From the NCBI GenBank assembly GCA_021791335.1, contig JAJYWS010000037.1:1-32148 (forward strand): a DNA stretch of 32,148 nt, read 5' to 3'. Positions 348 to 30,618 of the stretch are shown in pieces; position 1 is the first letter of the stretch, and each line of letters begins with the position of its first letter. The notes beneath the pieces were generated by a model, which was not told the DNA's origin, ran no database searches, and was given only the letters and a program-made list of their open reading frames with translations. A program made the translations under genes and the position numbers. This DNA is from Thermoplasmata archaeon (lineage in GTDB: Archaea > Thermoplasmatota > Thermoplasmata > Lutacidiplasmatales > UBA184).

Positions 348-1070
348 ATGGCCCTGGCGATTCCCGAGACGGTGCCTCGCTCGGTTGGCCGGGCGATCGA
401 TGCGCTCGCCGAGGGCCGCCCGGTGCTGATCTTCGACGCCGAGGACCGGGAGGGCGAGGTCGATCTGGTCTACCTCTCCGAGCGGATCACTCCCGCGCGG
501 GTCCGCGAACTCCGCCGCGAGGCGGGGGGGGTCATCTGCGCGGCGATCCCGGAGGAGTTGGCCCGTCGGGCCGGCCTGCCGTTCTTCACCGAGCTGCTCA
601 CCGAGGCCGCGTCGCGGTTTCCGATCACCGGGGCCCTCATCGAGCGGCCCCGCTACGACGCCCGGAGCGCCTTCGGCCTTACGGTCAACCACCGGGCCAC
701 GTTCACCGGGATCCCGGACCGGGACCGGGCGAGGACGCTCACGGAGCTCGGGCGTTGGGTGACCCGCTCGGCCGGGCCGGACGACCGGACGGTCGCCGAG
801 GAGTTTGCCCGGGAGTTCAGCTCCCCGGGCCACGTTCCGCTCCTCTACGCCGCCGAGGGACTTTCGCGGGTGCGCCGGGGGCACACCGAGCTCAGCATGG
901 CCCTCGCCCGGATGGGCGGCCTCTCGGAGTCGACGACGGTCTGCGAGATGCTCGGCGACGACGACGGCCCGCTTCCCCGGAGCCGGGCGCGCCCGTACGC
1001 CGACCGGCACGACGGCGTCTTTATCGAGGGTCGGGAGATTGCCGATGCGTGGGTCCGATGGTCCGAGTGA
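348..1070 (+). CDS. ribB: 3,4-dihydroxy-2-butanone 4-phosphate synthase
   Basis: This enzyme converts ribulose 5-phosphate to 3,4-dihydroxy-2-butanone 4-phosphate plus formate, supplying the four-carbon unit for lumazine in riboflavin synthesis. The 240-residue protein shows the acidic metal/substrate motif DAEDREGEVDLV near the N terminus, the segment LTVNHRATFTGIPDRDRA, the conserved SSPGHVPLL, and RRGHTELS, all diagnostic of the RibB family. Length fits a single-domain archaeal enzyme with no fused GTP cyclohydrolase. The ATG start is supported by a TATA-like box 26 bases upstream, suggesting a leaderless message. It is the first gene of a tight rib operon, and its last 13 bases overlap ribL. 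Confidence 0.95.
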   Translation: MALAIPETVPRSVGRAIDALAEGRPVLIFDAEDREGEVDLVYLSERITPARVRELRREAGGVICAAIPEELARRAGLPFFTELLTEAASRFPITGALIERPRYDARSAFGLTVNHRATFTGIPDRDRARTLTELGRWVTRSAGPDDRTVAEEFAREFSSPGHVPLLYAAEGLSRVRRGHTELSMALARMGGLSESTTVCEMLGDDDGPLPRSRARPYADRHDGVFIEGREIADAWVRWSE

Positions 1071-1489
1071 TGGCCACCGGGGTCTTCGACCTCCTGCACC
1101 CCGGCCACCTCTACTTCCTCGAGGAGGCCCGACGGCTCGGCGACGAGCTCGTCGTGGTCGTGGCCCGCGATGCGACGGTCCGGCGGCTCAAGGGCGAGCC
1201 GTATCTCCCCGAGGCGACCCGTCGGATCATGGTCGACGCGCTGAAGCCGGTCGACCGGGCCGTGCTCGGATCGACGACCGACATCTACACGACGGTGGTC
1301 GACCTGCGCCCCCAGGTGATCGCGCTCGGATTCAACCAGCATTGGGACGAGGCGGAGATCGCCCGGGAGTGCGCGCGCCGCGGGGTGCCGGCCCGGGTGG
1401 TCCGGATCGGGCCCCGTCCGGGCGAAGAGTACGCCTCGCGCCGGATCGTCGACCGGATCCTCCAGCGGGCGTCGGAGTCGGCCCGATGA
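1058..1489 (+). CDS. ribL: FAD synthase (archaeal cytidylyltransferase-type)
   Basis: RibL transfers AMP from ATP to FMN to make FAD in archaea; it belongs to the glycerol-3-phosphate cytidylyltransferase-like nucleotidyltransferases. The 143-residue protein has the nucleotide-binding signature GVFDLLHPGH (residues 8-17, HxGH at 14-17) and a second conserved region near Y-AS-RRIVDRI at the C terminus (ISSTxI-like position). Length matches archaeal RibL (about 145-150). The ATG at 1058 lies inside the end of ribB and gives translational coupling. A related family member could use a CTP/alcohol-phosphate substrate, but the position inside a riboflavin operon strongly favours FAD synthase. Confidence 0.88.
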   Translation: MVRVMATGVFDLLHPGHLYFLEEARRLGDELVVVVARDATVRRLKGEPYLPEATRRIMVDALKPVDRAVLGSTTDIYTTVVDLRPQVIALGFNQHWDEAEIARECARRGVPARVVRIGPRPGEEYASRRIVDRILQRASESAR

Positions 1490-1956
1490 AGCGGATCGCT
1501 GTCGTGGACACCACCTTCGCCCGGGTGGACATGGCCGGCTACGCGGTCCGGGCGCTCCGCGCGGCGGGGACCGGCTTTGCCCTGGTGCGCCGGACGGTGC
1601 CCGGGATCAAGGATCTTCCGGTCGCCTGCCGGCAGGCGATGGTCGAGGACGGCGCCGACCTCGTTCTGGCGCTCGGGATGCCGGGCCGGGCCGACTACGA
1701 CCGGACCTGCGCCCATGAGGCCTCGCTCGGGCTCCAGTTCGCCGCGGTCCTCGGGGGTCGGCCGATCGTCGAGTGCTTCGTCTTCGAAGGCGAGGCCGAC
1801 GACCCCCGGACGCTCGAGACGCTCGCCCGTCGGCGGGCCGAAGAGCACGCCCTGAATGCCTACACCCTCCTCTTCCGGCCGGACGACCTTGGCCGACGCG
1901 CCGGCACCGGTCTACGGCAGGGGTTCGCCGATGCGGGGCCGATCCGACCCCGATGA
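1486..1956 (+). CDS. ribC: Riboflavin synthase (archaeal, RibC type)
   Basis: This enzyme dismutates two molecules of 6,7-dimethyl-8-ribityllumazine to riboflavin and the pyrimidine that is recycled. The 156-residue protein begins MKRIAVVDTTFARVDM, typical of the archaeal pentameric riboflavin synthase, which is related to lumazine synthase rather than to the bacterial RibE trimer. It also has VRRTVPGIKDLPVACRQ, LALGMPG and the C-terminal segment with EEHALNAYTLLF. Its ATG overlaps the ribL stop (ATGA), so the two are coupled. The C-terminal 25 or so residues are Arg/Gly-rich and probably not part of the fold. Confidence 0.92.
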   Translation: MKRIAVVDTTFARVDMAGYAVRALRAAGTGFALVRRTVPGIKDLPVACRQAMVEDGADLVLALGMPGRADYDRTCAHEASLGLQFAAVLGGRPIVECFVFEGEADDPRTLETLARRRAEEHALNAYTLLFRPDDLGRRAGTGLRQGFADAGPIRPR

Positions 1957-1990
1957 TCCCCGACCTCACACTCCCCCAAGGAACACAACC

Positions 1991-2431
1991 ATGAGTCCGA
2001 ACCCAACGCCCCCCGAGCGCCTCCAGGTCGCGATCGTCGCCAGCGAGTACAACTTCGACGTCACGCTGCTCATGCTCGAGCGGGCGAAGGAGGAGATCGC
2101 GTTTCTCGGCGGGACCCTGGGCCCGGTCCTCAAGACCCCGGGTGTCTTCGACATGCCGCTCGCCGTCGACCGGCTCCTGCGGCGGCCCGACGTCGACGCG
2201 TTGGTCGCCCTCGGGGCGGTCATCGAGGGCGAGACGCAGCACGATGAGGTCGTCATGCAGCAGGCGGCCCGGAAGCTCGCCGACCTGTCGGTCCAGCACG
2301 GGAAACCGGTCGGGCTCGGCATCACCGGCCCGGGGGAGACCCGGCTCCAGGCGCAGGACCGGATCGAGAACGCCGCCCAGGCGGTCCGGGCGGTCGTGAA
2401 GATGGTCCGGCGGCTCCGCGACCTGGGATGA
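1991..2431 (+). CDS. ribH: 6,7-dimethyl-8-ribityllumazine synthase
   Basis: RibH condenses the butanone phosphate made by RibB with 5-amino-6-ribitylaminouracil to form lumazine, the substrate of RibC next door. The 146-residue protein has the substrate-binding N-terminal segment VAIVASEYNFDV, the phosphate-binding GAVIEGETQHDEVV with the catalytic histidine, and GITGPGETRLQAQDRI near the C terminus. Length is normal for the family. The ATG at 1991 follows ribC by 34 bases, with AAGGA (1979-1983) as a weak ribosome-binding site. It ends the rib operon; the next gene is on the opposite strand six bases away. Confidence 0.95.
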   Translation: MSPNPTPPERLQVAIVASEYNFDVTLLMLERAKEEIAFLGGTLGPVLKTPGVFDMPLAVDRLLRRPDVDALVALGAVIEGETQHDEVVMQQAARKLADLSVQHGKPVGLGITGPGETRLQAQDRIENAAQAVRAVVKMVRRLRDLG

Positions 2432-2437
2432 TCGGTC

Positions 2438-2848
2438 CTACAGCCCGAGCCGGCCCCGCAGGAACTCGAAGGCCGCCCGGCCCTTCGCCGTATGGCCGGT
2501 GACCTGGGCGGCGCCCGGAGGGAGCGGGCCCCCGGAGGGGCGGTCGAGCGCCTGGACCAAGTGGGACTGGGCGATCCGGACCGTCACGTCCGGGGTCGGC
2601 ACCGGACCGCTACGCACCGTCATCTGGCCACTCCCCTGGACGGTCAGGCTGGCTGCCCCCGCCTCGGTCTCGAAGAGCCAGGTCTGGGGAAGGTAGGCCT
2701 GCGCCATCTGCCCGATGAAGCCCTTCAGCCGCCGGCGGAGTTCAGGCTCCATCCGCTCGGCCGCCCGGTGGAGCGTCTCGGCCGGTTCGCTCACGGCCTC
2801 CATGAGCGCCCGTCGGGTAAAGGGTTTCGCTCCGTGGGCCGCCCGCAC
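2438..2848 (-). CDS. SCP2-like sterol/lipid-binding domain protein
   Basis: The 136-residue protein resembles single-domain SCP2 (sterol carrier protein 2) family proteins: an amphipathic helical N-terminal half, then a beta segment with LTVQGSGQMTVRSG, a DVTVRIAQSHLVQALD segment, and the terminal VTGHTAKGRAAFEFLRGRL. The last part matches the characteristic G-D/K-hydrophobic end of SCP2 domains. SCP2 domains bind lipids or acyl-CoA in the cytoplasm; the ligand here is unknown. The start used is a GTG at 2848 with a TATA-like CATAACC (about 2869-2875) some 23 bases upstream, so it may be leaderless. An alternative ATG is at 2803. It is divergent from, and overlaps by a few bases, the chosen biotin ligase start. 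Confidence 0.7.
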   Translation of the reverse strand: MRAAHGAKPFTRRALMEAVSEPAETLHRAAERMEPELRRRLKGFIGQMAQAYLPQTWLFETEAGAASLTVQGSGQMTVRSGPVPTPDVTVRIAQSHLVQALDRPSGGPLPPGAAQVTGHTAKGRAAFEFLRGRLGL

Positions 2849-3652
2849 GACGTCCCGGCCCCCGAACGGTTATGGTCGTCGGCCTCCTCGGGGCCGCCTC
2901 CGGGGTGGGGGCGGACGGCGACGCATCGGTTCGGGGCGATCGATTCGACCCAACGGATCGCCCGGGTCCTGGCCCGGGATCCGTCGACGGTGGGCGATCA
3001 GGTCGTCGCCCTGGCCCAGAAGGGCGGCCGCGGCCAGGGGGCCCACACCTGGGCCTCCCCGCCGGGGGGGCTCTACCTCTCGCTCATCCGCCGCGCCCCA
3101 CCGGCGACCTCCGCGATCGTGCCGATCGCCCTCGGGGTCGCGCTCGCCGAGCTCTTCGAACGGCGTTGGTCGGTCCCGTCCCGGGTACGCTGGCCGAACG
3201 ACGTGGTCGCCGCCCGGCCGGTGGGGCCCTCGCGGAAGGTCTCGGGGATACTGGTCGACGGCGTCGAGATGAACACCCCGAGGGCCCGGTGCGTGATCGG
3301 CATCGGCGTCAACGTCCGGCCGCTGCCCGACGTGGTGCCGGAGGAGGTCCGGAGCATCGCGAGCTCGATCGGAGAGTGGGCGAGCCCGCCGCCTCCGCTC
3401 TCCGAGGTGGAGTCGGAGGTCGTCGCCGCCGTCGACCGGGCCCTGCTCGACCTGGAACGGCCGGACGGCGTCGGCGGGTGCCTGCGTCGGGCCCGGGCCC
3501 GGCTGGACGGTCGGGGCCGGATCGCCCTCATCGACGGGCGGCCCGCCGGACGGATCGACACCCTCGGCGAGGGGGGCGAGCTTCTTTTGGTCGACGGGCT
3601 TGGGCCCCGACGGATCGTCTCGGGGCGGTTGACGATCCAGGACGATCCATGA
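2834..3652 (+). CDS. birA: Biotin--[carboxyl carrier protein] ligase
   Basis: The enzyme activates biotin as biotinyl-5'-AMP and attaches it to the lysine of a biotin carrier protein, here presumably the carrier encoded three genes downstream. Landmarks in order: AIDSTQ (biotin-binding start), GGRGQGAHTWASPPGGLYLSL (biotinyl-AMP loop), RVRWPNDVV, KVSGILVDG with the adenylate-contacting lysine, VIGIGVNV, and a small C-terminal beta domain. There is no DNA-binding domain, so it is a catalytic-only ligase. The AMP loop departs from the usual GRGRRGR: the fourth to seventh positions are Q-G-A-H. The start is uncertain: GTG 2834 is the last in-frame ATG/GTG/TTG before the conserved core. The stop overlaps the next ATG (ATGA). 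Confidence 0.9.
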   Translation: MGRPHDVPAPERLWSSASSGPPPGWGRTATHRFGAIDSTQRIARVLARDPSTVGDQVVALAQKGGRGQGAHTWASPPGGLYLSLIRRAPPATSAIVPIALGVALAELFERRWSVPSRVRWPNDVVAARPVGPSRKVSGILVDGVEMNTPRARCVIGIGVNVRPLPDVVPEEVRSIASSIGEWASPPPPLSEVESEVVAAVDRALLDLERPDGVGGCLRRARARLDGRGRIALIDGRPAGRIDTLGEGGELLLVDGLGPRRIVSGRLTIQDDP

Positions 3653-5199
3653 CCGAGAACTTCGATCGCTGGACGCAGCTGGAGGCGGCCGCGGAGGCCG
3701 GGGGCGGGGCCGCGCGACGGGACCGGCACCAGAAGGCGGGCCGGCTGGGGGCGCGGGCGCGGCTCGAGGCGTTCTTCGACCCCGGGACCTTCCAGGAGTA
3801 CGACCGGCTCGTGACCCATCGGGCGACCGCCTTCGGCTTGGCGGAGCGCCGGATCCCCGGCGACGGGGTCGTCACCGGCTGGGGGGAGGTCGACGGCCGC
3901 CCGGTCGCTGCCTTCGCCCAGGACGCCACGGTCTTCGGGGGGGCGCTCGGGGAGGCGCATGCGGGCAAGATCGTGAAGGCGATGGAGAACGCCCGCAAGG
4001 CCGGTATCCCGATCGTCGGCTTCAACGACTCGGGCGGGGCCCGGATCCAGGAGGGGGTGATGAGCCTCGGCGGGTACGGCGAGGTGTTCTACCGGAACGT
4101 CGCGCTCTCGGGGGTCGTCCCCCAGATCTCGCTGGTCCTCGGCCCCTGCGCGGGCGGCGCGGTCTATTCGCCGGCGATCACCGACTTCATCGTGATGGTG
4201 CGGGGCACCGGCCAGATGTTCATCACCGGCCCGGATGTCGTCCGGGCGGTCACGGGGGAGGAGGTCACGATGGAGGCCCTCGGCGGGGCCGACGCCCACG
4301 GGTCGCAGAGCGGGGTCTCCCATCTGACGGCGGCGAACGACGCGGAGGCGATCCGGCTCGCCCGGCACCTGCTCTCCTACCTCCCGCTCAACAACCTCGA
4401 GGATCCGCCCCGCGGGGCACCGCGACCGCCGCCCGAGTCGGCGGCCGCCGAGCTCGCCGGGATCGTTCCCGAGAGTCCCCAGCAGCCGTACGACGTCCAC
4501 GCGGTCATCGAGCGGATCGCCGACCTGGACTCGTTCCTGGAGATCCAGCCGGGCTGGGCGACCAACATCGTCGTCGGGTTCGCCCGGTTCGACGGGCGGC
4601 CGGTCGGGATCGTCGCGAACAATCCGGCGACGCTCGCCGGTACCCTGGACATCGACGCGTCGACCAAGGCGGCCCGGTTCGTCCGGTTCCTCGATGCCTT
4701 CAACCTGCCGGTCCTGACGTTGGTCGATGTCCCCGGATTCCTCCCCGGGACCGCGCAGGAGCATGGCGGGATCATCCGGCACGGGGCGAAGCTCCTCTAC
4801 GCCTACTCGGAGGCGACGGTGCCGCTCATCACGGTGATCCTGCGCAAGGCCTTCGGCGGGGCGTACGACGTGATGTGCTCGAAGCACCTCGGGGGCGACG
4901 TGAACCTCGCCTGGCCGAACGCCGAGATCGCGGTCATGGGCGCCGACGGGGCGGTCCAGATCCTGTTCCGTCGGGAGATCGAGGCGGCCCCCGAAGCGGA
5001 GCGGGCCGCGCTGAGGGCCCGGCTCGCCGGCGAGTACCGGCGGGAGTTTCTGAACCCGTTCCTCGCGGCGGAGCGGGGGTACCTGGACGCGGTGATCGAC
5101 CCGTCGACCACCCGCCCCCGGATCCTCGCCGCGCTGAATCTGCTCGAGGGCAAGCGCGACGACCGGCCGGCCCGCAAGCACGGGAACCTGCCGCTCTAG
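3649..5199 (+). CDS. Acyl-CoA carboxyltransferase, propionyl/methylmalonyl-CoA type (12S-like)
   Basis: This 516-residue protein is a biotin-dependent carboxyltransferase of the PccB/MmdA/transcarboxylase-12S family. It moves CO2 between carboxybiotin and an acyl-CoA, most likely propionyl-CoA/methylmalonyl-CoA. Both crotonase-like halves are visible. The N half has FNDSGGARIQEG, SLVLGPCAGGAVYSP (oxyanion hole) and FITGPDVV. The C half has TLVDVPGFLPGTAQEHGGI, the second oxyanion-hole segment KAFGGAYDVM and VMGADGAVQIL. Length equals PccB and the 12S subunit of propionibacterial transcarboxylase (about 520). The ATG is coupled to birA, and pycB-like follows 9 bases later. Substrate choice (propionyl versus acetyl) is inferred from overall similarity. 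Confidence 0.92.
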   Translation: MTENFDRWTQLEAAAEAGGGAARRDRHQKAGRLGARARLEAFFDPGTFQEYDRLVTHRATAFGLAERRIPGDGVVTGWGEVDGRPVAAFAQDATVFGGALGEAHAGKIVKAMENARKAGIPIVGFNDSGGARIQEGVMSLGGYGEVFYRNVALSGVVPQISLVLGPCAGGAVYSPAITDFIVMVRGTGQMFITGPDVVRAVTGEEVTMEALGGADAHGSQSGVSHLTAANDAEAIRLARHLLSYLPLNNLEDPPRGAPRPPPESAAAELAGIVPESPQQPYDVHAVIERIADLDSFLEIQPGWATNIVVGFARFDGRPVGIVANNPATLAGTLDIDASTKAARFVRFLDAFNLPVLTLVDVPGFLPGTAQEHGGIIRHGAKLLYAYSEATVPLITVILRKAFGGAYDVMCSKHLGGDVNLAWPNAEIAVMGADGAVQILFRREIEAAPEAERAALRARLAGEYRREFLNPFLAAERGYLDAVIDPSTTRPRILAALNLLEGKRDDRPARKHGNLPL

Positions 5200-5208
5200 G
5201 GGGCGCCG

Positions 5209-6744
5209 ATGGTCGAGATCACCGAGACGGTCCTGCGGGACGGCCACCAGTCGCTCATCGCCACCCGGATGCGCACCCGCGACATGCTTCCGGCGGCCGA
5301 GCGGCTCGACGGCGTCGGCTACCGCTCGCTCGAGGTCTGGGGCGGCGCGACCTTCGACGTCTGCCTGCGGTTCCTCCACGAGGACCCGTGGGAGCGGCTG
5401 CGGACCCTCAAGAGGGCGATGCCGAACACCCCCCTCCAGATGCTCCTGCGGGGCCAGAACCTGGTCGGCTACCGGCATTACGCCGACGACATGGTCCGGG
5501 CCTTCGTCCAGGAGGCGGCCCGGCAGGGCATCGACATCTTCCGGGTCTTCGACGCGCTCAACGATCCCGGCAACATGGCCGTCGCCCTCGCCGAGGTCAA
5601 GCGGGCCGGGGCGCGCGCCCAGGCGACGATCTGCTACACCCAGAGCCCGGTCCACACGCTGGAGTCGTTCGTCGCGCTCGGCCACCGGCTCGCCGAGCTC
5701 GGCGCCGACGAGCTGTGCGTCAAGGACATGGCCGGCTTCATGCCCCCGGACGAGGGGGGCCGGCTGGTCCGGGCGCTGGTCGAGGAGGTCCGGCTTCCGG
5801 TGGTCGTCCACATGCACAGCGCGAGCGGCTTCTCGACCCTCACCGCGCTCGCCGTCGCCGAGGCCGGGGCGACCGCGATCGACAGCGCCTTGAGCCCGTT
5901 CGCCGGCGGCGCCTCCCAGCCGCCGACCGAGACGCTCGTGGGCGCGCTGCAGGGCACGGCGCGCGCGACCGGCCTCGACCTGCCGCTCCTCTCCGACCTC
6001 GCGGAGTACTTCCACGGGGTGCTCGACCACTACCGCCCGCTCCTCAACGTGCGGGCGCTCCAGACCGACCCGGGGATCCTCCTCCATCAGGTGCCGGGCG
6101 GGATGTTCTCCAACCTCCTGAGCCAGCTCGCCGAGCAGGAGGCGACCGGACGGCTCGCCGAGGTCCTCGCCGAGATCCCCCGGGTCCGGGCCGACCTGGG
6201 CTACCCTCCGCTCGTCACCCCGACCAGCCAGATCGTCGGGATCCAGGCGGTGATGAACGTGCTCGCCGGCGGGCGGTACCGGCAGGTCACGAAGGAGGTC
6301 CGCGATTACGTTCGGGGCCTCTACGGGACCCCGCCCGGCCCCCTCGATCCGGCGCTCAAGGCCCGGATCCTCGCCGAGACGCCCGGCATCCGGGGCCGCC
6401 CGGCCGACTCCCTGGAGCCGGAGCTCACGAAGGCGATCGCCGAGGTCCGGGCGCTGGTCCCGAGCGCCGACACGGCCGAGGCGCTTTCGTACGGCCTCTT
6501 CCCCCAGGTCTACAAGAGCTACCGGGCGGCGCGCGACCGCGCGATCGACGATTCGGTCCTGACCACCGCGGCGCTCGGGATCCTCGGGGCGCTTCGGCGT
6601 CCCCCGCCGGCCCCGCCGCCCCGTCCCGCGGCCCCCGCGTCGGGGGGCGACGGGGGACCGATCCCCTGGGCGTTCGCGGGACGTTCCCAGTTGCAGAACC
6701 AGCGGAGGTGGCTCGATGCGGGTCGTCGTCGTACGGGGCACTGA
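5209..6744 (+). CDS. Pyruvate/oxaloacetate carboxyltransferase (5S/PycB-like)
   Basis: This 511-residue protein is a metal-dependent carboxyltransferase acting on pyruvate/oxaloacetate, as in PycB, OadA and transcarboxylase 5S. The metal-site pieces are all present: RDGHQS with D11 near the N terminus, the carbamylated-lysine motif CVKDMAGF (K172) and VHMHSASG (H201, H203). Also conserved are EVWGGATFDVCLRFLHEDPW, the RGQN-VGYRHYADD stretch and FRVFDALND. It lacks the C-terminal biotinyl domain of OadA; instead it ends in a Pro/Ala-rich tail, and the carrier is a separate gene overlapping by 29 bases. The size matches the 5S subunit (about 505-520) better than PycB with a fused carrier. ATG 5209 follows an AGGGGG stretch. 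Confidence 0.92.
   Translation: MVEITETVLRDGHQSLIATRMRTRDMLPAAERLDGVGYRSLEVWGGATFDVCLRFLHEDPWERLRTLKRAMPNTPLQMLLRGQNLVGYRHYADDMVRAFVQEAARQGIDIFRVFDALNDPGNMAVALAEVKRAGARAQATICYTQSPVHTLESFVALGHRLAELGADELCVKDMAGFMPPDEGGRLVRALVEEVRLPVVVHMHSASGFSTLTALAVAEAGATAIDSALSPFAGGASQPPTETLVGALQGTARATGLDLPLLSDLAEYFHGVLDHYRPLLNVRALQTDPGILLHQVPGGMFSNLLSQLAEQEATGRLAEVLAEIPRVRADLGYPPLVTPTSQIVGIQAVMNVLAGGRYRQVTKEVRDYVRGLYGTPPGPLDPALKARILAETPGIRGRPADSLEPELTKAIAEVRALVPSADTAEALSYGLFPQVYKSYRAARDRAIDDSVLTTAALGILGALRRPPPAPPPRPAAPASGGDGGPIPWAFAGRSQLQNQRRWLDAGRRRTGH
6704..6710 (+). promoter_or_regulatory. Strong Shine-Dalgarno site for the biotin carrier gene
   Basis: GGAGGTG, complementary to the 16S 3' end seen at 207-218, lies 5 bases before the ATG at 6716. 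It fixes the start of the biotin carrier inside the coding sequence of the upstream gene and suggests independent, strong translation of the carrier. Confidence 0.8.
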
Positions 6745-7264
6745 GCGCACCGAGGTGGAGGTCGATCCGGCGGCCCGGACCGTCACGATCGGGGGGCGGA
6801 GCTGGTCGTACGAGATCGCGGAGGACCGGGGCCTCCGCACCGAGCTCGAGATCGCCGGTGAACGGGTGATCGTCGAGGGATGGCCCGCGGGGCTGGAACG
6901 CCCGCCCGGCCCGTTGGCGGTCAACGGGGAGCGCTGGACCGCGACCGCGGAACCGGTCGCCGGGTCCGTCCCCGAGCCGACCGCGGCGGCGCCGCGGCCG
7001 GTCGAACCTCCGTCGCCCGCCGGGCCGTCCGCCGGCCCCTCGGAAGGCGAGCCGATCCTGCCCCCGATGCCCGGCCGCATCCTCGAGGTCCGGGTGAAGG
7101 CGGGCGACCGGGTCGAGGCCGGTACCCTCCTGCTGGTGCTGGAGGCGATGAAGATGCGCAACGAGATCGTGGCCCCCCGGGCGGGCCGGATCGCCTCGGT
7201 GCGGGTCGCCGCCGGGGCGTCGGTCCGGGCCCGGGAGCCGATGCTCTACCTCGCCTCCGAGTGA
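6716..7264 (+). CDS. Biotin carboxyl carrier protein (1.3S-like)
   Basis: The carrier shuttles carboxyl groups between active sites on a biotin attached to lysine. The biotinylation motif EAMKM is at the C terminus, with K146 36 residues from the end, the usual place, inside a typical biotinyl beta-barrel (ILPPMPGRILEVRVKAGDRV through LYLASE). A Pro/Ala/Ser-rich flexible linker (about residues 80-117) precedes it. The first 80 or so residues form a predicted beta-rich region (VDPAARTVTIGGRSWSYEI, VNGERW) that loosely resembles the BT domain linking carrier and carboxyltransferase in propionyl-CoA carboxylase; this resemblance is an inference. At 182 residues it is longer than the 123-residue propionibacterial 1.3S. 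Its 3' end overlaps the convergent gene by 19 bases. Confidence 0.93.
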   Translation: MRVVVVRGTERTEVEVDPAARTVTIGGRSWSYEIAEDRGLRTELEIAGERVIVEGWPAGLERPPGPLAVNGERWTATAEPVAGSVPEPTAAAPRPVEPPSPAGPSAGPSEGEPILPPMPGRILEVRVKAGDRVEAGTLLLVLEAMKMRNEIVAPRAGRIASVRVAAGASVRAREPMLYLASE

Positions 7265-7590
7265 TCGGGGGCCGGGTCGAGCCGGTCCGCCTCCTCGACC
7301 GGGTCGTAGTCGGGATCGGTCGGCTCGACCTCGGGGCCGGTCGCCGGCGGGGCGGGCGCCCGCGGTTCGACCCGGACCGTGGAGACCGGCCGCTCCGGCG
7401 GGACGTACGGGATCTGATGGAACTCCCAGAGGTAGGCGACGGCGACGCCGAGCGGCACGACGAGCGGGGCCAGGGCCCAGTCGCCGGGCAGGGTGCGGCT
7501 GCCGAGGTAGACGGCGGCGATGGCGAGGAGCCCGAGGATCGCGAGCATGCCGGTGAAGGGGATCCGGGTGAGCCCCGCCCGCCGGGTCAA
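7246..7590 (-). CDS. Small two-segment membrane protein, unknown function
   Basis: I do not recognise a family. The protein has two hydrophobic segments (MLAILGLLAIAAVYLGS and WALAPLVVPLGVAVAYLW) followed by a Pro- and Glu/Asp-rich soluble tail. Two starts are possible: a TTG at 7590 that overlaps the upstream stop (TTGA), giving 114 residues, or the ATG at 7548, giving 100 residues. I chose the coupled TTG because the basic residues it adds (TRRAGLTR) suit a positive-inside N terminus. It is the second gene of a two-gene unit with the zinc-ribbon protein and probably works with it in the membrane. It is convergent with the biotin carrier gene. Confidence 0.6.
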   Translation of the reverse strand: MTRRAGLTRIPFTGMLAILGLLAIAAVYLGSRTLPGDWALAPLVVPLGVAVAYLWEFHQIPYVPPERPVSTVRVEPRAPAPPATGPEVEPTDPDYDPVEEADRLDPAPDHSEAR

Positions 7591-7931
7591 TGGCCGGCCC
7601 CCCGGAAGGTCGGCACCGACCGGCCGCAGGCCGGGCAACTGGTCGCTCCGGGCGGGTAGGCGGTCCCGCACCAGATGCAGAACCCGAGGGGCGCGGCCTC
7701 CGCCGATCCCAGGGGGGCCCCCGGGCTCGAGAGGCCCGACGCGGGCCGGGGCGCCGCCGAGCCGATCCGGCCCGAGGTCCGCGGATGGTAGGCGAGGGCG
7801 AGGCTCACGAACATCCAGAGGAGGAGCCCGTAGAAGGCGATGGTCGAGAGGCTCGGCAGGAGGAAGTAGATCGCGAGGGCGGCCCCGAGGAGCACCAGAT
7901 TCACCAGGGTCAGCAGGAACCGGTACTGCAT
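7587..7931 (-). CDS. Membrane protein with C-terminal zinc ribbon
   Basis: The 114-residue protein has two predicted membrane helices (LLTLVNLVLLGAALAIYFLL and IAFYGLLLWMFVSLALAY), a linker rich in Ser/Gly/Ala/Pro, then a treble-clef/zinc-ribbon signature C-I-W-C-G-(x)9-C-P-A-C-G. Zinc ribbons with this spacing are common at the ends of archaeal membrane proteins and often mediate protein contacts; no specific function can be assigned. The ATG at 7931 has GGGAGGGAACGGGG just upstream on the minus strand as a ribosome-binding site. It is divergent from rtcB with about 107 bases between start codons. Confidence 0.72.
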   Translation of the reverse strand: MQYRFLLTLVNLVLLGAALAIYFLLPSLSTIAFYGLLLWMFVSLALAYHPRTSGRIGSAAPRPASGLSSPGAPLGSAEAAPLGFCIWCGTAYPPGATSCPACGRSVPTFRGAGH

Positions 7932-8009
7932 TCCCCGTTCCCTCCCCAGCGGTCAACGCGGGGCGGCTACTTGGTGTTTTGTACCGACCGGTGGCCCGTG
8001 CCCCAGCCT

Positions 8010-8016
8010 CTAATAG
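8010..8016 (+). promoter_or_regulatory. Candidate TATA box for rtcB
   Basis: CTAATAG lies in GC-rich surroundings with its centre 26 bases before the ATG at 8039. The spacing implies transcription starts at or next to the start codon. Confidence 0.5.
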
Positions 8017-8038
8017 GCCCGCCGGTTCGGCGCGGGCC

Positions 8039-9490
8039 ATGCCGCCCGTGCCCGAGCTCGTGGCCCGTGACGAGTTCACCTATGAGATCCCCCGGGACAC
8101 CGCCCGGGGGATGCGGGTGGCGGGGATCCTCTATTCGACCCCCGAGCTCCTCTCGGGGGTCCGCGACGACCCCTCGCTCGAGCAGCTCGCCAATGTCGCG
8201 ACGCTGCCGGGGATCGTCGGCGCCGCCTACGCGATGCCGGACATCCATTTCGGCTACGGGTTCCCGGTCGGCGGGGTCGCGGCCTTCGACCTCGACGACG
8301 GGGTCGTGAGCCCCGGCGGGATCGGCTACGACATCAACTGCGGGGTCCGTCTGCTCACGAGCCGCCTGGGCGTGGAGCAGGTACGGGCCCGGCTTTCGCC
8401 GCTCCTCGACCAGCTCTTCCGGGCGGTGCCGTCGGGGGTCGGCTCGAAGGGCGGCCACCCGGTCTCCGCCTCCGAGATCGACGAGGTGCTCGCAGGGGGG
8501 GCCCATTGGGCCGTCGAGCGGGGGCTCGGGGTGGCGGACGATCTCCGGTGCCAGGAGGAGGGCGGCCGGATGGCCACGGCGGCGCCCGGGGAGGTCGGCG
8601 AGAGCGCCCGCAAGCGCGGGCTCCGGCAGCTCGGGACCCTCGGGAGCGGCAACCATTTCCTCGAGCTTCAGGCCGTCGACGAGGTCTACGAGCCCGGCCT
8701 GGCCCGGGCGCTCGGGCTCACCCCCGGCTCGGTCGCGGTGATGCTCCACACCGGTTCGCGCGGACTCGGCCACCAGGTCGCGACCGACTTCATCCAGCGG
8801 ATGGACGAGCGGCTCCACCGGGAGGGTACGGTGCTGGTCGACCGGCAGCTCTCCTGCGCCCCGATCGGCTCGGACGACGGCGCCGCCTACCTGGGCGCGA
8901 TGGCGGCGGCCGCCAACTTTGCCTGGGCGAACCGGCAGGCGATCACCCACGGGGTCCGGACCGCCTTCGAGTCGGTCTTCTCCACCCCCTGGAGGGATCT
9001 GGGCCTCGAGGTCGCCTACGACATCAGCCACAACATGGCGAAGGTCGAATCCCACGCGACACCGGCGGGGGAGCGCCGCCTCCTGGTCCACCGCAAGGGG
9101 GCGACCCGGGCCTTCCCGGCGGGCCGGCCCGAGGTGCCGGAGCCGTACCGCCCGTTCGGCCAGCCGGTGCTGATCCCCGGCGACATGGGGACCGCCAGCT
9201 ACGTGCTGAGCGGGCTCCCGTCCGCCCTCGGCCGGTCGTTCGGCTCCTCCTGCCATGGGGCGGGACGCCGGATGAGCCGGCACGCCGCGGTCCGTTCGTT
9301 CCGGTTCGACCAGGTGACCCGGGAGCTCGGCGAGCGGGGGATCCTCGTCCGTTCGGCGAGCCGGGAGGGGGTCACCGAGGAGGCGCCCGGCGCCTACAAG
9401 AGCGTCGACCAGGTGGTCCGGGCCGCCGAGGGGGCCGGGCTGACCCGCCGGGTGGCCCGGCTGCGGCCGCTCGGCGTCGTCAAGGGCTGA
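8039..9490 (+). CDS. rtcB: RNA-splicing ligase RtcB
   Basis: RtcB joins a 2',3'-cyclic phosphate or 3'-phosphate RNA end to a 5'-OH end using GTP and Mn2+; in archaea it ligates tRNA exons after intron removal. The 483-residue protein is full length without intein. Motifs in order: GGIGYDINCGVRLL (metal Asp and Cys), LGTLGSGNHFLELQ, HTGSRGLGHQ, ISHNMAKVE, LVHRKGATRAFPAG, PGDMGTASYVL and SSCHGAGRRMSR, whose His (about residue 406) is the guanylated nucleophile. The ATG start is backed by a TATA box at -26. The window also holds an intron-containing tRNA-Leu (19594-19710), a likely kind of substrate. Confidence 0.97.
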   Translation: MPPVPELVARDEFTYEIPRDTARGMRVAGILYSTPELLSGVRDDPSLEQLANVATLPGIVGAAYAMPDIHFGYGFPVGGVAAFDLDDGVVSPGGIGYDINCGVRLLTSRLGVEQVRARLSPLLDQLFRAVPSGVGSKGGHPVSASEIDEVLAGGAHWAVERGLGVADDLRCQEEGGRMATAAPGEVGESARKRGLRQLGTLGSGNHFLELQAVDEVYEPGLARALGLTPGSVAVMLHTGSRGLGHQVATDFIQRMDERLHREGTVLVDRQLSCAPIGSDDGAAYLGAMAAAANFAWANRQAITHGVRTAFESVFSTPWRDLGLEVAYDISHNMAKVESHATPAGERRLLVHRKGATRAFPAGRPEVPEPYRPFGQPVLIPGDMGTASYVLSGLPSALGRSFGSSCHGAGRRMSRHAAVRSFRFDQVTRELGERGILVRSASREGVTEEAPGAYKSVDQVVRAAEGAGLTRRVARLRPLGVVKG

Positions 9491-9571
9491 GCCGCCCGGC
9501 GGGCGGGCGCGCGGGGGACCTCTTGGGCGTCGGCCAGCGCCCTCGTCCCTCACCGGGTGGCAAAGCGCCAT

Positions 9572-10945
9572 ATGGGCCGCTCCGGTCCGACCGGGGGAGC
9601 GGCGGGAGTGTTCGCCATCAACGGCTATCTCATCCTCGTCCTGGTCGTCGCCGCCTACGGGCTCGCGGTCTACGGGCTCTACCGCGCCGGCTTCATCGGG
9701 GCCGACCGGAGCCTTTCGCTCCTCGGACCGGCGCTGATGATCAAGACCCGCCGGGGTCGGGCCGCCCTCGACCGTTGGGGACGGTTCCGGCGGTTCTGGA
9801 GCGCCGCGGGGGATTTCGGGATCCTCCTCGCCGCCGTCTCGATGGTGGCGATGATCGGGCTCCTCCTCCTCGACGCCTACGTCTCCCTGTCGCTCTCCGC
9901 CGCCCAGGCGCCGACCCCCCAGGAGGCGCTCGGCCTCCCCGGGATCAACCCGATCATCCCGATCGGCTACGGCATCGTCGCGCTGGTGGTGGGGATCGTC
10001 CTCCACGAGCTCATGCACGGCGTGCTCGCCCGCTCCCAGAAGGTCGGGGTGAAGAGCCTCGGGATCCTCTGGTGCGTCGTCCCGATCGGGGCGTTCGTCG
10101 AGCAGGACGATGAGGAGATGCAGCGGGCCTCCCGGCGCTCGCGCGACCGGATCGCGGCCGCGGGCATCCTCGCGAACTTCGTCCTCGCCGCCGTCTTCTT
10201 CCTCCTCCTCGCGGCGCTCCTCAACGGCGGGATCGCGCCGAATGCCCCGGGGGTGGGCGTCGTCCAGGTGGTCGCCCACTCCCCGGCCGCGAACGCCTCG
10301 CTCGCCCCCGGGGACATCATCACGGCCGTCAACGGGACCCCGATCACCTCGACCCTCGAGTTCGAGAACCTGCTCGCCGCCTCTTACCCCCACGAGGTCG
10401 TGACGGTGGGGTTCTATTCGAACGCCGCCGGCCGGGTCGTGACCGAGCGGGTGCCGCTCGCCCAGAACCCGACCAACGCGACCCGGGGCTTCCTCGGGGT
10501 CGCCGTGAACTACCTGACGCCGGCCCAGCTCAAGGCGACGCTGGTGAGCCCGCTCACGAGCGCGGCGACGCCCGAGGCCGGCCTCGTCAACTGGCTGGTC
10601 CTGCCGCTCGCGACCCTGGAGCCGGTCGCGGCGCCCACGACCGGATTCTTCCACCTCACGGGGATCTGGGCCTCCACCGATCCGGGGAGCTTCTGGATCG
10701 GGGCCAACCTCCTCTACTGGCTGAGCTGGATGAACCTCCTCCTGGGCGCCTCGAACGCGCTCCCGTTGATCCCCCTGGACGGCGGCCTCCTCGTCCGGGA
10801 CTACGCGGCGGCGCTCATGGGCCGGCTGCGGAAGGGGTGGAGCACCGCCCGGCTCGACGACTTCGGGGGCCGGGTCGCCGTCACCGCCTCCCTGGTCGTC
10901 GTCCTTTTGATCGTATGGCAGTTCATCGTGCCCCGTCTGGGATAG
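9572..10945 (+). CDS. Site-2-type membrane zinc metalloprotease (M50) with PDZ domain
   Basis: This is a predicted intramembrane protease. The zinc motif HELMH (first His at residue 145) sits in a membrane helix, and the third ligand motif IPLDGG is near the C terminus. Several other membrane helices are present, including one at the N terminus (YLILVLVVAAYGLAVYGLY) and one at the C terminus (VAVTASLVVVLLIVWQFIV). Between the two halves is a PDZ-like domain (VVQVVAHSPAANASLAPGDIITAVNG). Such proteases cut transmembrane segments of signalling or pre-cleaved membrane proteins; the target is unknown. The start is uncertain: GTG 9557, ATG 9572 and a GTG near 9609 are all possible. The gene's 3' end overlaps priL by 31 bases. 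Confidence 0.88.
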   Translation: MGRSGPTGGAAGVFAINGYLILVLVVAAYGLAVYGLYRAGFIGADRSLSLLGPALMIKTRRGRAALDRWGRFRRFWSAAGDFGILLAAVSMVAMIGLLLLDAYVSLSLSAAQAPTPQEALGLPGINPIIPIGYGIVALVVGIVLHELMHGVLARSQKVGVKSLGILWCVVPIGAFVEQDDEEMQRASRRSRDRIAAAGILANFVLAAVFFLLLAALLNGGIAPNAPGVGVVQVVAHSPAANASLAPGDIITAVNGTPITSTLEFENLLAASYPHEVVTVGFYSNAAGRVVTERVPLAQNPTNATRGFLGVAVNYLTPAQLKATLVSPLTSAATPEAGLVNWLVLPLATLEPVAAPTTGFFHLTGIWASTDPGSFWIGANLLYWLSWMNLLLGASNALPLIPLDGGLLVRDYAAALMGRLRKGWSTARLDDFGGRVAVTASLVVVLLIVWQFIVPRLG

Positions 10946-21886: not shown

Positions 21887-22577
21887 GTCGGTCCTCCGCG
21901 CCCTGACGGATCGCCTCCCGGAGCCGGGCGAGGTTCGCTTCAATCGCTCCCCCTTCGAAGGCTGCGTTGCCGCACACGAAGAAGGTGCCCCCGGCCCGGG
22001 CCGCCCGGCGGCCGGTCTCGGACGTGACCCCGCCGTCGACCCCGATGTCGACCCGGCCCCCGGCCCTATCGGAAAGCGCCCGGGCCTCCGCAATCTTGTC
22101 GAGACATTCGGGCAGGAAGAGCTGGCCCGAAAAGCCCGGATGGACCGTCATCACCAGGATCGCGTCGAGCTCCGGGAGCCACGGTTCGACCCGAGCGACC
22201 GGGGTTTCGGGCCGTACGGCCACGGCGGCTTCCATCCCCAGGGCCCGGATCGAGCGCGCCAGTCCGGCCGGATCCGAGGCCGCCTCAAGGTGGAAGGTCA
22301 ACCGGTCTCCCCCCGCCCGCCGGAACGGATCGAGGAATCGTTCCGGATGCTCCACCATGAGGTGGATGTCGAGCGGAAGTCGGGTATGGCGACGCACCGC
22401 GGCGACCAGGGCCGGGCCGAAGGAAAGGTTCGGGACGAAGTGACCGTCCATCACATCCAGATGAAAGGCCGCGGCTCCGCCTTCCTCCGCCCGCCGGACC
22501 GCGCTTCCCAAGTCGGAGAAGTCGGCGCTCAGCAGCGAGGGGGCCAGCCGGAGATTTCGGTCGGGGGACAAGGGCAT
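21873..22577 (-). CDS. rpe: Ribulose-phosphate 3-epimerase
   Basis: Interconverts ribulose 5-phosphate and xylulose 5-phosphate in pentose metabolism; ribulose 5-phosphate is also the RibB substrate. The 234-residue TIM-barrel shows APSLLSADFSDLG at the N terminus (catalytic Ser and Asp region), FHLDVMDGHFVPNLSFGP with metal-binding His and Asp, DIHLMVEHPE, VMTVHPGFSGQ and VDGGVTSETG near the C terminus; these cover all active-site strands. ATG 22577 lies 25 bases from TATATATA (22599-22606), consistent with a leaderless mRNA. It heads the long minus-strand cluster down to glyA. Confidence 0.95.
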   Translation of the reverse strand: MPLSPDRNLRLAPSLLSADFSDLGSAVRRAEEGGAAAFHLDVMDGHFVPNLSFGPALVAAVRRHTRLPLDIHLMVEHPERFLDPFRRAGGDRLTFHLEAASDPAGLARSIRALGMEAAVAVRPETPVARVEPWLPELDAILVMTVHPGFSGQLFLPECLDKIAEARALSDRAGGRVDIGVDGGVTSETGRRAARAGGTFFVCGNAAFEGGAIEANLARLREAIRQGAEDRHAVP

Positions 22578-22598
22578 GGAGAGGGAGTCGCGTAAGCC

Positions 22599-22606
22599 TA
22601 TATATA
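22599..22606. promoter_or_regulatory. Palindromic TATA box between rpe and the peptide-binding gene
   Basis: TATATATA reads the same on both strands. It lies about 25 bases from the rpe ATG on the minus strand. On the plus strand it sits about 25 bases before a probable start near 22628, leaving a leader of roughly 26 bases to the ATG at 22654. It could serve both divergent genes. Confidence 0.65.
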
Positions 22607-22621
22607 CCACCTTTTGGGTGG
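22607..22621 (+). promoter_or_regulatory. Dyad CCACC-n5-GGTGG next to the TATA box, possible operator
   Basis: The inverted repeat CCACCTTTTGGGTGG starts one base after the TATATATA, between the TATA box and the expected start of the peptide-binding gene. A protein bound here would block that promoter. Alternatively it may form a 5' hairpin only if transcription begins further upstream. No second copy was seen by eye near oppB. Confidence 0.4.
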
Positions 22622-22653
22622 CGTTTCTAAGCCCCGAGAGGGGTGCTAAACGC

Positions 22654-25600
22654 ATGCAGACAGCAGATGAACAGAGCCCGACCATGCAGCCGCGTGGATT
22701 GGGCCGAAGGGGTATCTCGACAACGATGGCGGCGGTGGTCATGATTGTGGTCATCGTCGTTGTCGGTGGAGTCGGGTATGTCGGAATCGGAGCGCTGGCG
22801 GGCCAGGGTAGCAATACCGTGTCCACCTGTCAGCCGGCGACGAGTCCGGTCTGCCACTCCACGAGCAATCTGAACAACGTCGTGCTGTTCGTGGCCTACC
22901 AGCCCGGCTACGGACAGAGCATGATCCAACTCCAGCAGGGCCAATCGCTTCCGGCGTCGGTTTCGCTTTCGGGCGGCGGTCTGGCCTCCAGCTACACCGT
23001 TCACTGGGGCGACGGAACCGCCACGACCCAGACCTCGCCCACCTTCACCCACATCTACACTTCGCTCGGTGTCTTCGTGATGCACGCGACGGCCAACGTG
23101 AGCGGAGTCACGCACCAGGGGCCCGGCTACCTCTACCCCGTGCAGGTCATTCCCTCCATCGCGAACAGCGCCTCCGGGCAGTACCCGGTACTGACGACCA
23201 CCTTCTCCAACGGGTCGGCCGGCGCCGGGGTTTCCCGGCCGTGGATCCAGGTCGGCCAGGGACCCATCTCCGTGAGCGGCTCGTACTCGAGCCTGCCCAC
23301 CGCTCCGGGCTACGTGGCCGGGGCTCCGTCGATCACCTCGACCGGCGGCACGATGGTAACCAGCAACTCCACGTCCACCCAGGCGCGCGCGACCTACTCG
23401 TTCTCCGCCGCGGGCGTCTATCGCCTCACCTTTGTCGGTCCGATCACCACCCCAACGGGCGGCACGATGTACCAGAACTACACGTGGACCGTCTTCGTAG
23501 GTGCCGCAGGGACCAGCCTCGGATGCGCCTACTGCCAGGGTAAGCAGTCGGTGAGCCCGCACCCGAACACCATCGACGCGTATGAGATCGCTCCGGGCGG
23601 AGCGACCAGCCTGGACCCCGCCGTCGACTATGAGACGGTGGGCGCCGAGGTCATGAACAACATCTTCGAGACGCTCGTCAATTACAACGGAACCAGCACG
23701 GCCGGCTTTGTCCCGGTCCTCGCCAACTGCGTTCCCGGCACCCAGGCGTGCGTCAACCAGTACGGCAGCAGCCTGCTGACCATTGTCAACAACCAGCCCC
23801 TTTACTGGACCTTCGTCATCAGCGGGAACGCCTCCTTCTACGACCCCTCGACCGGCCACTCCTGGGGCGTCTACCCGTCCGATGTGATGTTCTCCATCAC
23901 CCGGACGCTGCTCTGGCTGCAGACCCCGAGCCAGTACGTCTACAACGGCTGGATCATCGGGCAGTCGCTCCTTCCCTACGGGAACGCGAGCTGGGATGGT
24001 GGCCTCCACAGCCCGTGGAACAACACCCCCCAGAACATCCTGGGCTCGATGCTGGTCAATGACACCCAGTTCTGCCCCCAGTCGGCGATGACCCAGGCCC
24101 ACGGTTGCATCACCTTCAAGGCGGATGGGAGCGGCTCCGACTGGCCGTTCTTCCTCCAGCTCGTCGGGGATGCGAACGGTGGAGCGATCGTTCCGTGCGG
24201 GTGGTACACTGCTCAGGGCGCCAGCGTTCCGGGCTTCGCCGGGACCAGTGCCCCGAACGGCGACGGGCCGTGCCTTCTGCCCGGCGGTGCCACGAGCACG
24301 AACTCGTCGGCATTCCAGAACTACCTGAGTTCGGTCAGCCCGAAGGCGTACGATAGCGTGATTGAGCTCGGGGCGACCAGCCCGTATGCCCCGCAGCCGT
24401 CCGTCCGCTGGAACACGGTCGGGAGCGGCCCGTACTACCTTGAGAGCGTCGACCAGGGCGAGGGATACGTCCTCCAGGCCAACCCGGCCTACGCCCAGCC
24501 GAACTGTGCCGGCCAGCCGAACTGCTACCCGGCCCCCGGGAAGTATGTGGCCCACGTCAACGTGGCCTGGGAGCCGACTTCCACGGGAGGCATCGAGCAG
24601 TACATCGCGGGCCAGGCGGATGTGGCCGGATTCTATCCGACCGACATTCCGACCATCCTGAACCTGGTCCATGCGGGCAAGGTGGGTCTGCTCACGGTCC
24701 CGACGCTGGAGACCTTCGAGATGGGCTACTACTATCAGTTCAACCCGAGCGCGACCGCCCAGCAGTCGGGTCTGCCGGTGAACATCCCCGGGAACTTCTT
24801 CTCGTATGTCGGGCTCCGGGAGTTCTTCAGCCAGGCGTTCCCCTACGCCTACAGCCTGAACTCGCTCAACACCGTGGATGGGATCAACCTCGCCCTCAAC
24901 TTTGGCGGTGCGATCCCCCAGTTCATGGGGAACTACTACCCGACGAACATCAGCTGGCCGGGGCTCAACCTGACCACGAACACCTGGCATGATCCGAGCT
25001 TCAACCCGAACGTCAACGGCAGCGCGGCGTACTGGTGGAAGATGATCACCACGAACGCTCCGGGGAACCCGTACTACGACCCCGAGCTGGCGGCCTGTAC
25101 CTCCTCCAGCCCCTGTACCTTCCCGATGGTCGGTGAGCAGGGAGCCCAGACCCTGGCGCTCGCGATTCAGGCCTGGAACGCGGAGATCGTCAAGCTGACC
25201 GGTGGCGCCATCAGCCCCAGCCTCTGGCAGCCGACATTCAGCCAGATTGTGGTAGCGACCACGGCGCCCCCGGGAACCAGCGCGTTCACGACCGCCATCG
25301 ACGGCTGGCTGCCCGACTACCCGGACCCGACCGACTACATGGCCCCCTACTACTATCCGGACGGCAGCTACACCTACTCTCCGGGCCTGTACCAGACGTT
25401 TGTCCAGCAGCAGTTCGGCGGCTCGTACAACTGCCCGATCGAGAACACGCTCGACTTTGCCAGCCTGGTCTACTGGGCGAACCACGGCCTGGTGGCGAAC
25501 AACTGCCAGGGCACGGCCTACTCGGTCATGAACTGGGCGAACCAGTTGGCGGCCAGCATGCCGACCGGGGCGCAGCGGACTCTTTATTACAACCTGGTTG

Positions 25601-25755: not shown

Positions 25756-25778
25756 GTCGGTAGGACACTCCGAGCCCG

Positions 25779-25831
25779 GGGACCTATCCCCCTACGGGGG
25801 TAGGTCCCAACCCTTTCCTGACTTCTTTTCT
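25779..25831 (+). terminator. Terminator after the peptide-binding gene
   Basis: A 13-pair hairpin, GGGACCTA-T-CCCC / GGGG-G-TAGGTCCC with loop CTAC (25779-25808, one T-G pair), begins 24 bases after the stop codon. It is followed by CCAACCCTTTCCTGACTTCTTTTCTG. The segment CCAACCCTTTCC plus a nearby CTTCT also follows the thermopsin hairpin at 17025-17045. Confidence 0.75.
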
Positions 25832-26196
25832 GCTCTTCCGACCGATCTGATGGGTCGAGGGTACTGGGGCATGTTGGGTAGACGTTTCCGAACCCGAGGG
25901 GTTACGAAGCGGAGGCTCGGCCACGGAGGGAGCGCCTTCTAAGTCGCCGACGAGGGTCGTCGGCACCCGTCTCAGGGCGCTTCGGCCGGAATCGTGGGTG
26001 TGTGATGAAGCGGTCTGACCTGGGCGGCCCAGTGATCACAGGGAGATCTGCCATCGGATTCTACGAAGCCTGCGAAACGCCGGTCATTGCTGAGTGGCCC
26101 CATCCTATACATCGGGGGGACCGAATCTATGCTCTCGCAGAGTGCCGGGAGAACTGTGCCTGGAGGGCGGAGGCGCCGTCGTTGCCGGGGCTCTTC
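25832..26196. other. Intergenic region without a supported gene; one perfect hairpin
   Basis: This stretch lies between the convergent peptide-binding gene and the opp operon. I see no credible coding frame; the short frames here have no family features. A perfect 8-pair inverted repeat, GCCGACGA-GGG-TCGTCGGC (25946-25964), stands alone and lacks a T run on either strand. It may be a terminator remnant for opp, a processing site or part of a non-coding RNA. An A/T-containing CCTATACA at about 26104-26111 has no gene in promoter position. Nothing else stands out. Confidence 0.4.
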
Positions 26197-26628: not shown

Positions 26629-26652
26629 GGGGTCCCCTAGGGCCTCCGACGC

Positions 26653-27813: not shown

Positions 27814-27823
27814 AGGGGTCCTT

Positions 27824-29458: not shown

Positions 29459-29464
29459 GCTGGA

Positions 29465-30598: not shown

Positions 30599-30618
30599 CT
30601 GCATTCCTCCCTTCGCCT

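Follow-up and report, generated by a model that had tools for sequence, protein, structure and literature searches.

What does a biotin-dependent operon do when it carries two carboxyltransferases and a biotin carrier, and no biotin carboxylase (BC) to charge that carrier? The question is raised by a 32,148-nucleotide stretch of DNA (the window; positions 1 to 32,148 of contig JAJYWS010000037.1, assembly GCA_021791335.1) from a Thermoplasmata archaeon of the Lutacidiplasmatales, UBA184. Between positions 2834 and 7264, four plus-strand genes lie head to tail, all with profile matches: a biotin-protein ligase (birA), a 12S/PccB-type and a 5S/PycB-like carboxyltransferase, and a separate biotin carrier. 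Judged by sequence and gene content, the operon very probably encodes an archaeal methylmalonyl-CoA carboxytransferase (transcarboxylase) together with its own biotin ligase; we infer its activity, substrates, direction and the docking of 5S by a C-terminal tail. It is best read as a carboxytransferase of unusual make, whose carrier bears a propionyl-CoA carboxylase (PCC)-like BT barrel and whose 5S ends in a W-x3-[GA]R tail. Its features are as follows.

2834..3652, plus strand: birA, biotin-protein ligase (TIGR00121, 89.1 bits against a cut-off of 83.1; PF03099), start codon uncertain
3649..5199, plus strand: 12S-type CoA carboxyltransferase, 516 residues, with a putative propionyl-CoA/methylmalonyl-CoA site (PF01039, E 1.6e-195)
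5209..6744, plus strand: 5S-type pyruvate carboxyltransferase, 511 residues, no fused carrier (PF02436, E 4.2e-49; NF006761 over its cut-off)
6667..6684, plus strand: codons of the 5S tail motif W487-x3-G491-R492 (coordinates derived from residue numbers)
6716..7264, plus strand: biotin carrier, 182 residues (PF00364, E 1.6e-16; EAMKM motif)

Profile matches and coordinates bear out this gene set, which the original prediction had drawn from the window's letters. Its description of the genes as overlapping or within 9 bases of each other is exact: birA and 12S overlap by 4 bases, 12S and 5S are separated by 9, and 5S and the carrier overlap by 29. The GTG at 2834 is the sole ATG/GTG/TTG between that position and the part of birA conserved in relatives, and the frame stays open further upstream, to an ATG at 2492, across a minus-strand neighbour, so the birA start is uncertain. 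Within the genus, full-length identity is 69-93% for 5S and 70-94% for 12S (two genomes with a BC-type cassette, G032 and G006, left out). Since the gene set is kept in relatives, the operon is not a chance arrangement.

No BC gene and no OadB gene is seen among the operon's genes, again as predicted, which leaves the possibility that a BC encoded elsewhere charges one carrier for both transferases, as a PCC and a pyruvate carboxylase sharing a BC. The window's genome is a 1.41 Mb draft (63 contigs, of which the window is contig 26; 93.4% complete), and two probes found no BC in it. The first was the PF02785 profile, which detects BC in 13 of 14 control genomes. The second was a congener's BC protein, whose sole match there is a 1367-residue double-ATP-grasp frame (E 1.1e-8). 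PF02786 matches at four places in this genome, two of them in that same frame, which reads as CarB-like, and two weak ones that read as PurT-like and LysX-like. Weak ATP-grasp matches in the window's genome and in G007 were considered as hidden BCs and rejected, being read as CarB-like, PurT-like and LysX-like; these names come from frame length and translations rather than a profile search. Of the many other weak matches to the congener BC in the genus (22-34% identity), most belong to open frames roughly 1000 residues long or more; not each of them was read.

The wider sample points the same way. Among 101 genomes searched, 61 of them from the genus (G000-G060), BC is present in 14, with G006 and G032 as its sole carriers within the genus. 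Of the 61 genus genomes, 53 have a 5S homologue, and no BC was found in any of these 53 (17 of them are at least 90% complete); a simple completeness model would expect about 43 detections if all 53 carried one. The two BC-bearing genomes both lack 5S (G032, 91% complete; G006, 62% complete), and in G032 the BC replaces 5S. That both should fall among the eight genomes without 5S has a chance of 28/1830 = 0.015, a figure worked out by hand that ignores kinship and is only suggestive. Neither 5S nor BC is found in six genus genomes (G009, G029, G034, G041, G049 and G053; 56-88% complete), two of which, G009 and G049, hold 12S fragments at 77-80% identity. A shared BC is thus very unlikely for the genus, as far as drafts allow, even though 12S aligns best with PccB-type chains, 5S scores best with PycB and the carrier bears a BT-like barrel. 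Two genomes from other families (G087 and G098) do add a BC, encoded elsewhere, to a 12S-5S pair, and for them a shared BC is possible.

Which CoA ester the operon would serve is addressed by 12S. This subunit aligns near full length with solved PCC beta chains and with Propionibacterium 12S (1on3). In the alignment, its Asp407 corresponds to Asp422 of Streptomyces coelicolor PccB, a position that we take to have a role in substrate choice; of 54 locus rows from the genus, in which some genomes are counted twice, 52 keep the Asp. A transcarboxylase with another CoA partner, such as acetyl-CoA/malonyl-CoA instead of propionyl-CoA, appears about as unlikely as a shared BC. In its favour, the carboxyltransferase family spans acetyl-, propionyl- and other acyl-CoA enzymes, so that sequence cannot prove the substrate, and residue 407 varies among 12S proteins. 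Against it stand the conserved Asp and the genes for the next steps. Of the 61 genus genomes, 56 carry methylmalonyl-CoA mutase (MCM; PF01642); the window's genome has two copies (contigs C31 and C42), and a methylmalonyl-CoA epimerase over the cut-off adjoins the C42 one (C42:4180-4563). Both genes that the original prediction asked for are therefore present.

The least credible alternative is a decarboxylase, in which the carboxyl group that 12S or 5S takes from its substrate is lost as CO2, either through a beta subunit or by slow hydrolysis: TIGR01117 (mmdA) matches 12S and TIGR01108 (oadA) matches 5S, both below cut-off, and a related 12S lies near OadB and MCM in G075, but a decarboxylase has no need for two transferases on one carrier, and the beta subunit OAD_beta (PF03977; OadB/MmdB), which the same profile recovers in 6 of the 101 genomes, is found in 0 of 61 genus genomes, the window's own included.

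The known biotin enzymes can now be compared with what the genomes hold. For a PCC, the BC domain or subunit is missing from the findings; for a PycAB-type pyruvate carboxylase, no BC was found and 5S has no biotinyl domain; for a methylmalonyl-CoA or oxaloacetate decarboxylase Na+ pump, PF03977 found no beta subunit in the genus. For methylmalonyl-CoA carboxytransferase (EC 2.1.3.1), the operon offers a 12S-type acyl-CoA carboxyltransferase, a separate 5S-type carboxyltransferase with an intact metal site and a separate biotin carrier, and no BC partner was found in the window's draft genome or in the 5S-bearing genus genomes. Two transferases would share one carrier, and carboxybiotin would have no further source or sink, so that by established biotin-enzyme chemistry this gene content leaves carboxyl exchange as the only predicted net reaction. 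The ATP-free transcarboxylase of the original prediction is hence supported by genome content.

The 5S subunit is well preserved at its putative metal site. Residues D11, K172, H201 and H203 align with D34, K195, H226 and H228 of the 1rqb chain, which we take to be the metal ligands D23, K184, H215 and H217 of Propionibacterium 5S. An AlphaFold2 model (28 sequences; predicted local distance difference test score, pLDDT, 79.5) matches the folds of 5ks8, 2nx9 and 1rqb; only 31 and 28 sequences went into the structure models of this work. Beyond the catalytic part, the protein ends in a variable linker and a predicted helix (residues 486-503, pLDDT below 50) that starts at W487-x3-G-R492. W487 and R492 are invariant across the 28 aligned 5S proteins, and the pattern W-x3-[GAS]-R is present in all 41 distinct untruncated 5S proteins of the genus. 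Outside the genus it occurs in 4 of 21 unfused 5S proteins with a 12S gene in the locus, in 0 of 19 unfused ones without 12S and in 0 of 32 fused to a carrier. The pattern was defined after viewing the tails. The count excluded truncated proteins and any shorter than 440 residues, and near-variants (e.g. the L086 tail) were scored as non-matches; about 11% of shuffled tails also match, so lone matches outside the genus mean little. A Pfam search with the tail alone gave nothing useful. In some acyl-CoA carboxylases, AccE helices are argued to replace a missing BT helix (PMC3199775), and by analogy the 5S tail may act like these helices, docking 5S on a core of 12S and BT.

Similar tails and ends appear elsewhere. 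In other families of the class, the loci L052 (G077), L055 (G087) and L053 (G098) contain 12S-5S-carrier clusters whose 5S likewise has a W-x3-[GA]R tail; BC is present elsewhere in G087 and G098, and none was found in G077 (81% complete). Small proteins with W-x3-GR-type ends lie beside 12S genes in two Chloroflexi loci and one Mahella locus (L086:7523-7969, L099:5741-6193 and L088:4043-4396); we call them OadG-like from a reading of their sequences only. Biotin-enzyme complexes may share the W-x3-GR peptide as a docking element. Two 5S homologues in the genus (G055:C21:706-2223 and G044:C76:11805-13334) each cross one in-frame stop, by sequencing error or decay.

The carrier is unusual for a transcarboxylase. 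It consists of an N-terminal BT-like beta barrel (about residues 1-80), a disordered linker and a biotinyl domain whose EAMKM core is invariant in the carrier alignment A1 (the G058 carrier, of which the biotinyl half alone matches the window's carrier, was left out). In the AlphaFold2 model, the first 80 residues form a predicted eight-stranded barrel with no long helix. Top Foldseek matches are the BT-BCCP parts of PCC alpha chains (6ybq at E 3.6e-9, 7ybu and 3n6r), with yeast acetyl-CoA carboxylase BT-BCCP lower (5csa, 1.8e-6). Their TM-scores are only 0.35-0.40 and the root-mean-square deviations are high, as the floppy linker would lead one to expect. In profile searches, positions 22-171 align with residues 562-718 of PCC alpha (human chain); only four PCC chains align from position 22; the better-scoring matches fall short of it, and most other matches cover the biotinyl half only. 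A Pfam search with the N-terminus gave nothing useful, and the BT assignment comes from the fold and profile searches together. On this modelling, the carrier looks like a PCC alpha chain minus its BC.

How would these parts work together? BirA would biotinylate the carrier, 5S would move the carboxyl group of oxaloacetate to biotin, leaving pyruvate, and 12S would hand it to propionyl-CoA to give methylmalonyl-CoA, which the epimerase and mutase would turn into succinyl-CoA. The route would spend no ATP and no bicarbonate. Oxaloacetate would drive the carboxylation of propionyl-CoA derived from amino acids and odd-chain fatty acids, succinate oxidation would regenerate oxaloacetate, and the net product would be pyruvate. 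The likely direction is propionyl-CoA plus oxaloacetate to methylmalonyl-CoA plus pyruvate, and in a peptide-/fatty-acid-using, probably aerobic archaeon the pathway would, on balance, most likely serve to dispose of propionyl-CoA. The route would be reversible toward propionyl-CoA and oxaloacetate, and formation of propionyl-CoA in that reverse direction is conceivable.

Published genome work provides a context for this proposal. The 2022 Lutacidiplasmatales genome paper lists a propionate-to-succinate pathway, proposes aerobic/facultative lives using peptides, amino acids and fatty acids, and lists pccB as the PCC beta chain, a marker gene; the words biotin, pccA and transcarboxylase are absent from its main text (PMC9287336). 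Within the window, positions 22576-31827 hold what read as the genes of an oligopeptide-type ABC transporter (a solute-binding protein, two ATPases and two permeases), fitting for a peptide-using life.

Other enzymes linking pyruvate or phosphoenolpyruvate (PEP) to oxaloacetate were sought in the window's genome and 36 congeners. The archaeal-type PEP carboxylase profile PF14010 found the enzyme in 0 of these 37 genomes, the bacterial profile PF00311 not having been searched; among controls, PF14010 has matches in 6 of 14 (including E. coli and Haloferax) and is over the cut-off in 2. PEP carboxykinases (PF00821 and PF01293) were likewise found in 0 of 37.

The operon also sits in a recurrent chromosomal slot, marked by the following flanking genes.

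2438..2848, minus strand: SCP2-like gene, slot marker outside the enzyme (weak PF02036 match, E 0.17, under cut-off), a recurrent neighbour
7587..7931, minus strand: zinc-ribbon protein, slot marker (PF13240 over cut-off), a recurrent neighbour
8096..9490, plus strand: rtcB, slot marker (PF01139, E 1.1e-166), a recurrent neighbour

We compared the flanks of the window's locus and 31 relative loci, in which a few genomes are counted under two ids (e.g. L138/L171). The usual order is ribB, ribH, SCP2-like gene, birA, the cassette of 12S, 5S and carrier, zinc-ribbon gene and rtcB; not every flanking gene is matched in every locus, and distances vary. Among 29 transcarboxylase-type loci, birA lies upstream of the cassette in 27 (about 1.6 kb off it in L059), the other two ending at contig ends, and rtcB is present in 24, the remaining loci ending before it. 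Directly upstream in the window (348-2431) is what reads as a compact riboflavin/FAD synthesis gene set, whose ribB and ribH recur beside the slot in many relatives.

One species has a PCC-type cassette in the slot where its relatives hold 12S-5S-carrier. In G032 (L047), the usual neighbours flank an inverted cassette of a 12S-type gene, here 12S' (6088-7665), a BC (7728-9251; PF00289, PF02786 and PF02785) and a carrier (9241-9840); birA and the SCP2-like gene remain adjacent to it. By its sequence, this is apparently an ATP-dependent PCC. The same cassette type occurs in G006 (12S' 85% and BC 69% identical to G032), on a 5.1 kb contig with no flanking gene matched. The cassettes are alike in pairing a 12S-type subunit with a separate carrier. 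The PCC-type one, whose function is likewise read from sequence, differs in having BC instead of 5S and a 12S of separate origin: 12S' is only 54-55% identical to the window's 12S, each type falls in a clade of its own, and the approximately unbiased (AU) test rejects joining them (p 0.023; 37 rows, with four long branches calling for caution). The simplest reading is that both cassettes perform the same metabolic step.

The history of 5S was traced in a tree of 60 hand-picked rows: 16 from the genus, 6 from the class, 35 of 68 other named loci (drawn from the best 80 of a longer list) and 3 PDB stretches. The genus 5S proteins form one clade on a long stem, whereas Propionibacterium 5S (1rqb) pairs with Vibrio cholerae OadA. 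Orthology of the genus 5S with Propionibacterium 5S was considered, and the AU test weakly rejects their union (p 0.039); it does not reject one of the genus with the 12S-linked 5S of families f17 and f22, from the same class (p 0.287). Pairing of 12S with 5S is scattered over the tree, with at least four changes, and repeated (independent) assembly of 12S-5S pairs is plausible from these sequences.

Several observations weigh against a transcarboxylase, or against parts of the case for it. The BT-like barrel is the part that joins BC and carboxyltransferase in carboxylases. 5S scores nearer PycB (5ks8) and OadA (2nx9) than Propionibacterium 5S and reaches only 488.6 bits against the 827 cut-off of the NCBIfam 5S model (NF008984); it falls outside the Propionibacterium 5S lineage, a mark of descent that lies outside the definition of the reaction. 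Epimerase is over the cut-off in only 22 of 37 genus genomes searched, the rest having weaker matches. Position 407 is Cys in the PCC-type 12S' of both G032 and G006, which makes this residue weak evidence on substrate. Slot exchange with flanks is visible in G032 only, and G006 is too incomplete for its missing 5S to be more than weak evidence. The genus genomes are draft assemblies, and G087 and G098 combine a 12S-5S pair with a BC. G029 (88% complete) has no 12S, 5S or BC match and does have MCM; its gap is either a hole in the draft or a third way.

A broader reading joins these strands, and we offer it tentatively, at somewhat less than an even chance. A 'BC-less' PCC (PccB plus a BT-BCCP carrier) would have recruited a PycB-like subunit by means of a docking tail at its C-terminus, giving an independently assembled transcarboxylase whose cassette is exchangeable with an ATP-dependent PCC at one slot, a natural switch between carboxylation paid for with ATP and carboxylation without it. 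It would be the main, perhaps the only, carboxyl-level link between pyruvate and oxaloacetate, because PEP carboxylase, both PEP carboxykinases, pyruvate carboxylase and a Na+-pump oxaloacetate decarboxylase were not found (malic enzyme was not searched).

Transcarboxylases themselves are known. The Propionibacterium enzyme (12S, 1on3; 5S, 1rqb; 1.3S, 1dcz) is alike in its three kinds of part, its lack of BC and its conserved 5S metal-site residues. Unlike it, the archaeal system has a 5S nearer PycB/OadA, a W-x3-[GA]R tail on 5S, birA within the operon and an added BT-like barrel on the carrier; Propionibacterium 1.3S is not known to have such a barrel, and its solved chains are fragments. 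In Pelotomaculum thermopropionicum, an anaerobic syntroph, a propionyl-CoA:oxaloacetate transcarboxylase is proposed to work in the propionyl-CoA-consuming direction, from one mmc cluster that also holds epimerase, mutase and tricarboxylic acid cycle-type genes (PMC6046458). Unlike there, the archaeal mutase and epimerase lie on other contigs, and the host group is called aerobic/facultative (PMC9287336). A transcarboxylase was also invoked in 2020 for a propionate route in Asgard archaea, which are anaerobic lineages; the passages of that paper on this route hold nothing on a genus-wide lack of BC or on exchange with a PCC (PMC7015854). No description of such an archaeal system was found among the titles and abstract openings listed from the open-licence literature. 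What appears to be new is the combination of an archaeal host, a PCC-like BT carrier, a tailed 5S, a genus of 61 genomes with BC found in just 2, and replacement by a PCC-type cassette at one slot.

The PCC annotation of this acid-soil group implies ATP-paid CO2 fixation, for which the gene content here gives no support, and the use of pccB/pycB markers without a check for BC can misassign carbon flow in metagenome models. If the proposed function is true, these archaea dispose of propionyl-CoA by ATP-free carboxyl transfer, a route known from fermenters and syntrophs. Because a congener carries a PCC-type cassette in that very slot, the conditions under which each version pays can be tested directly.

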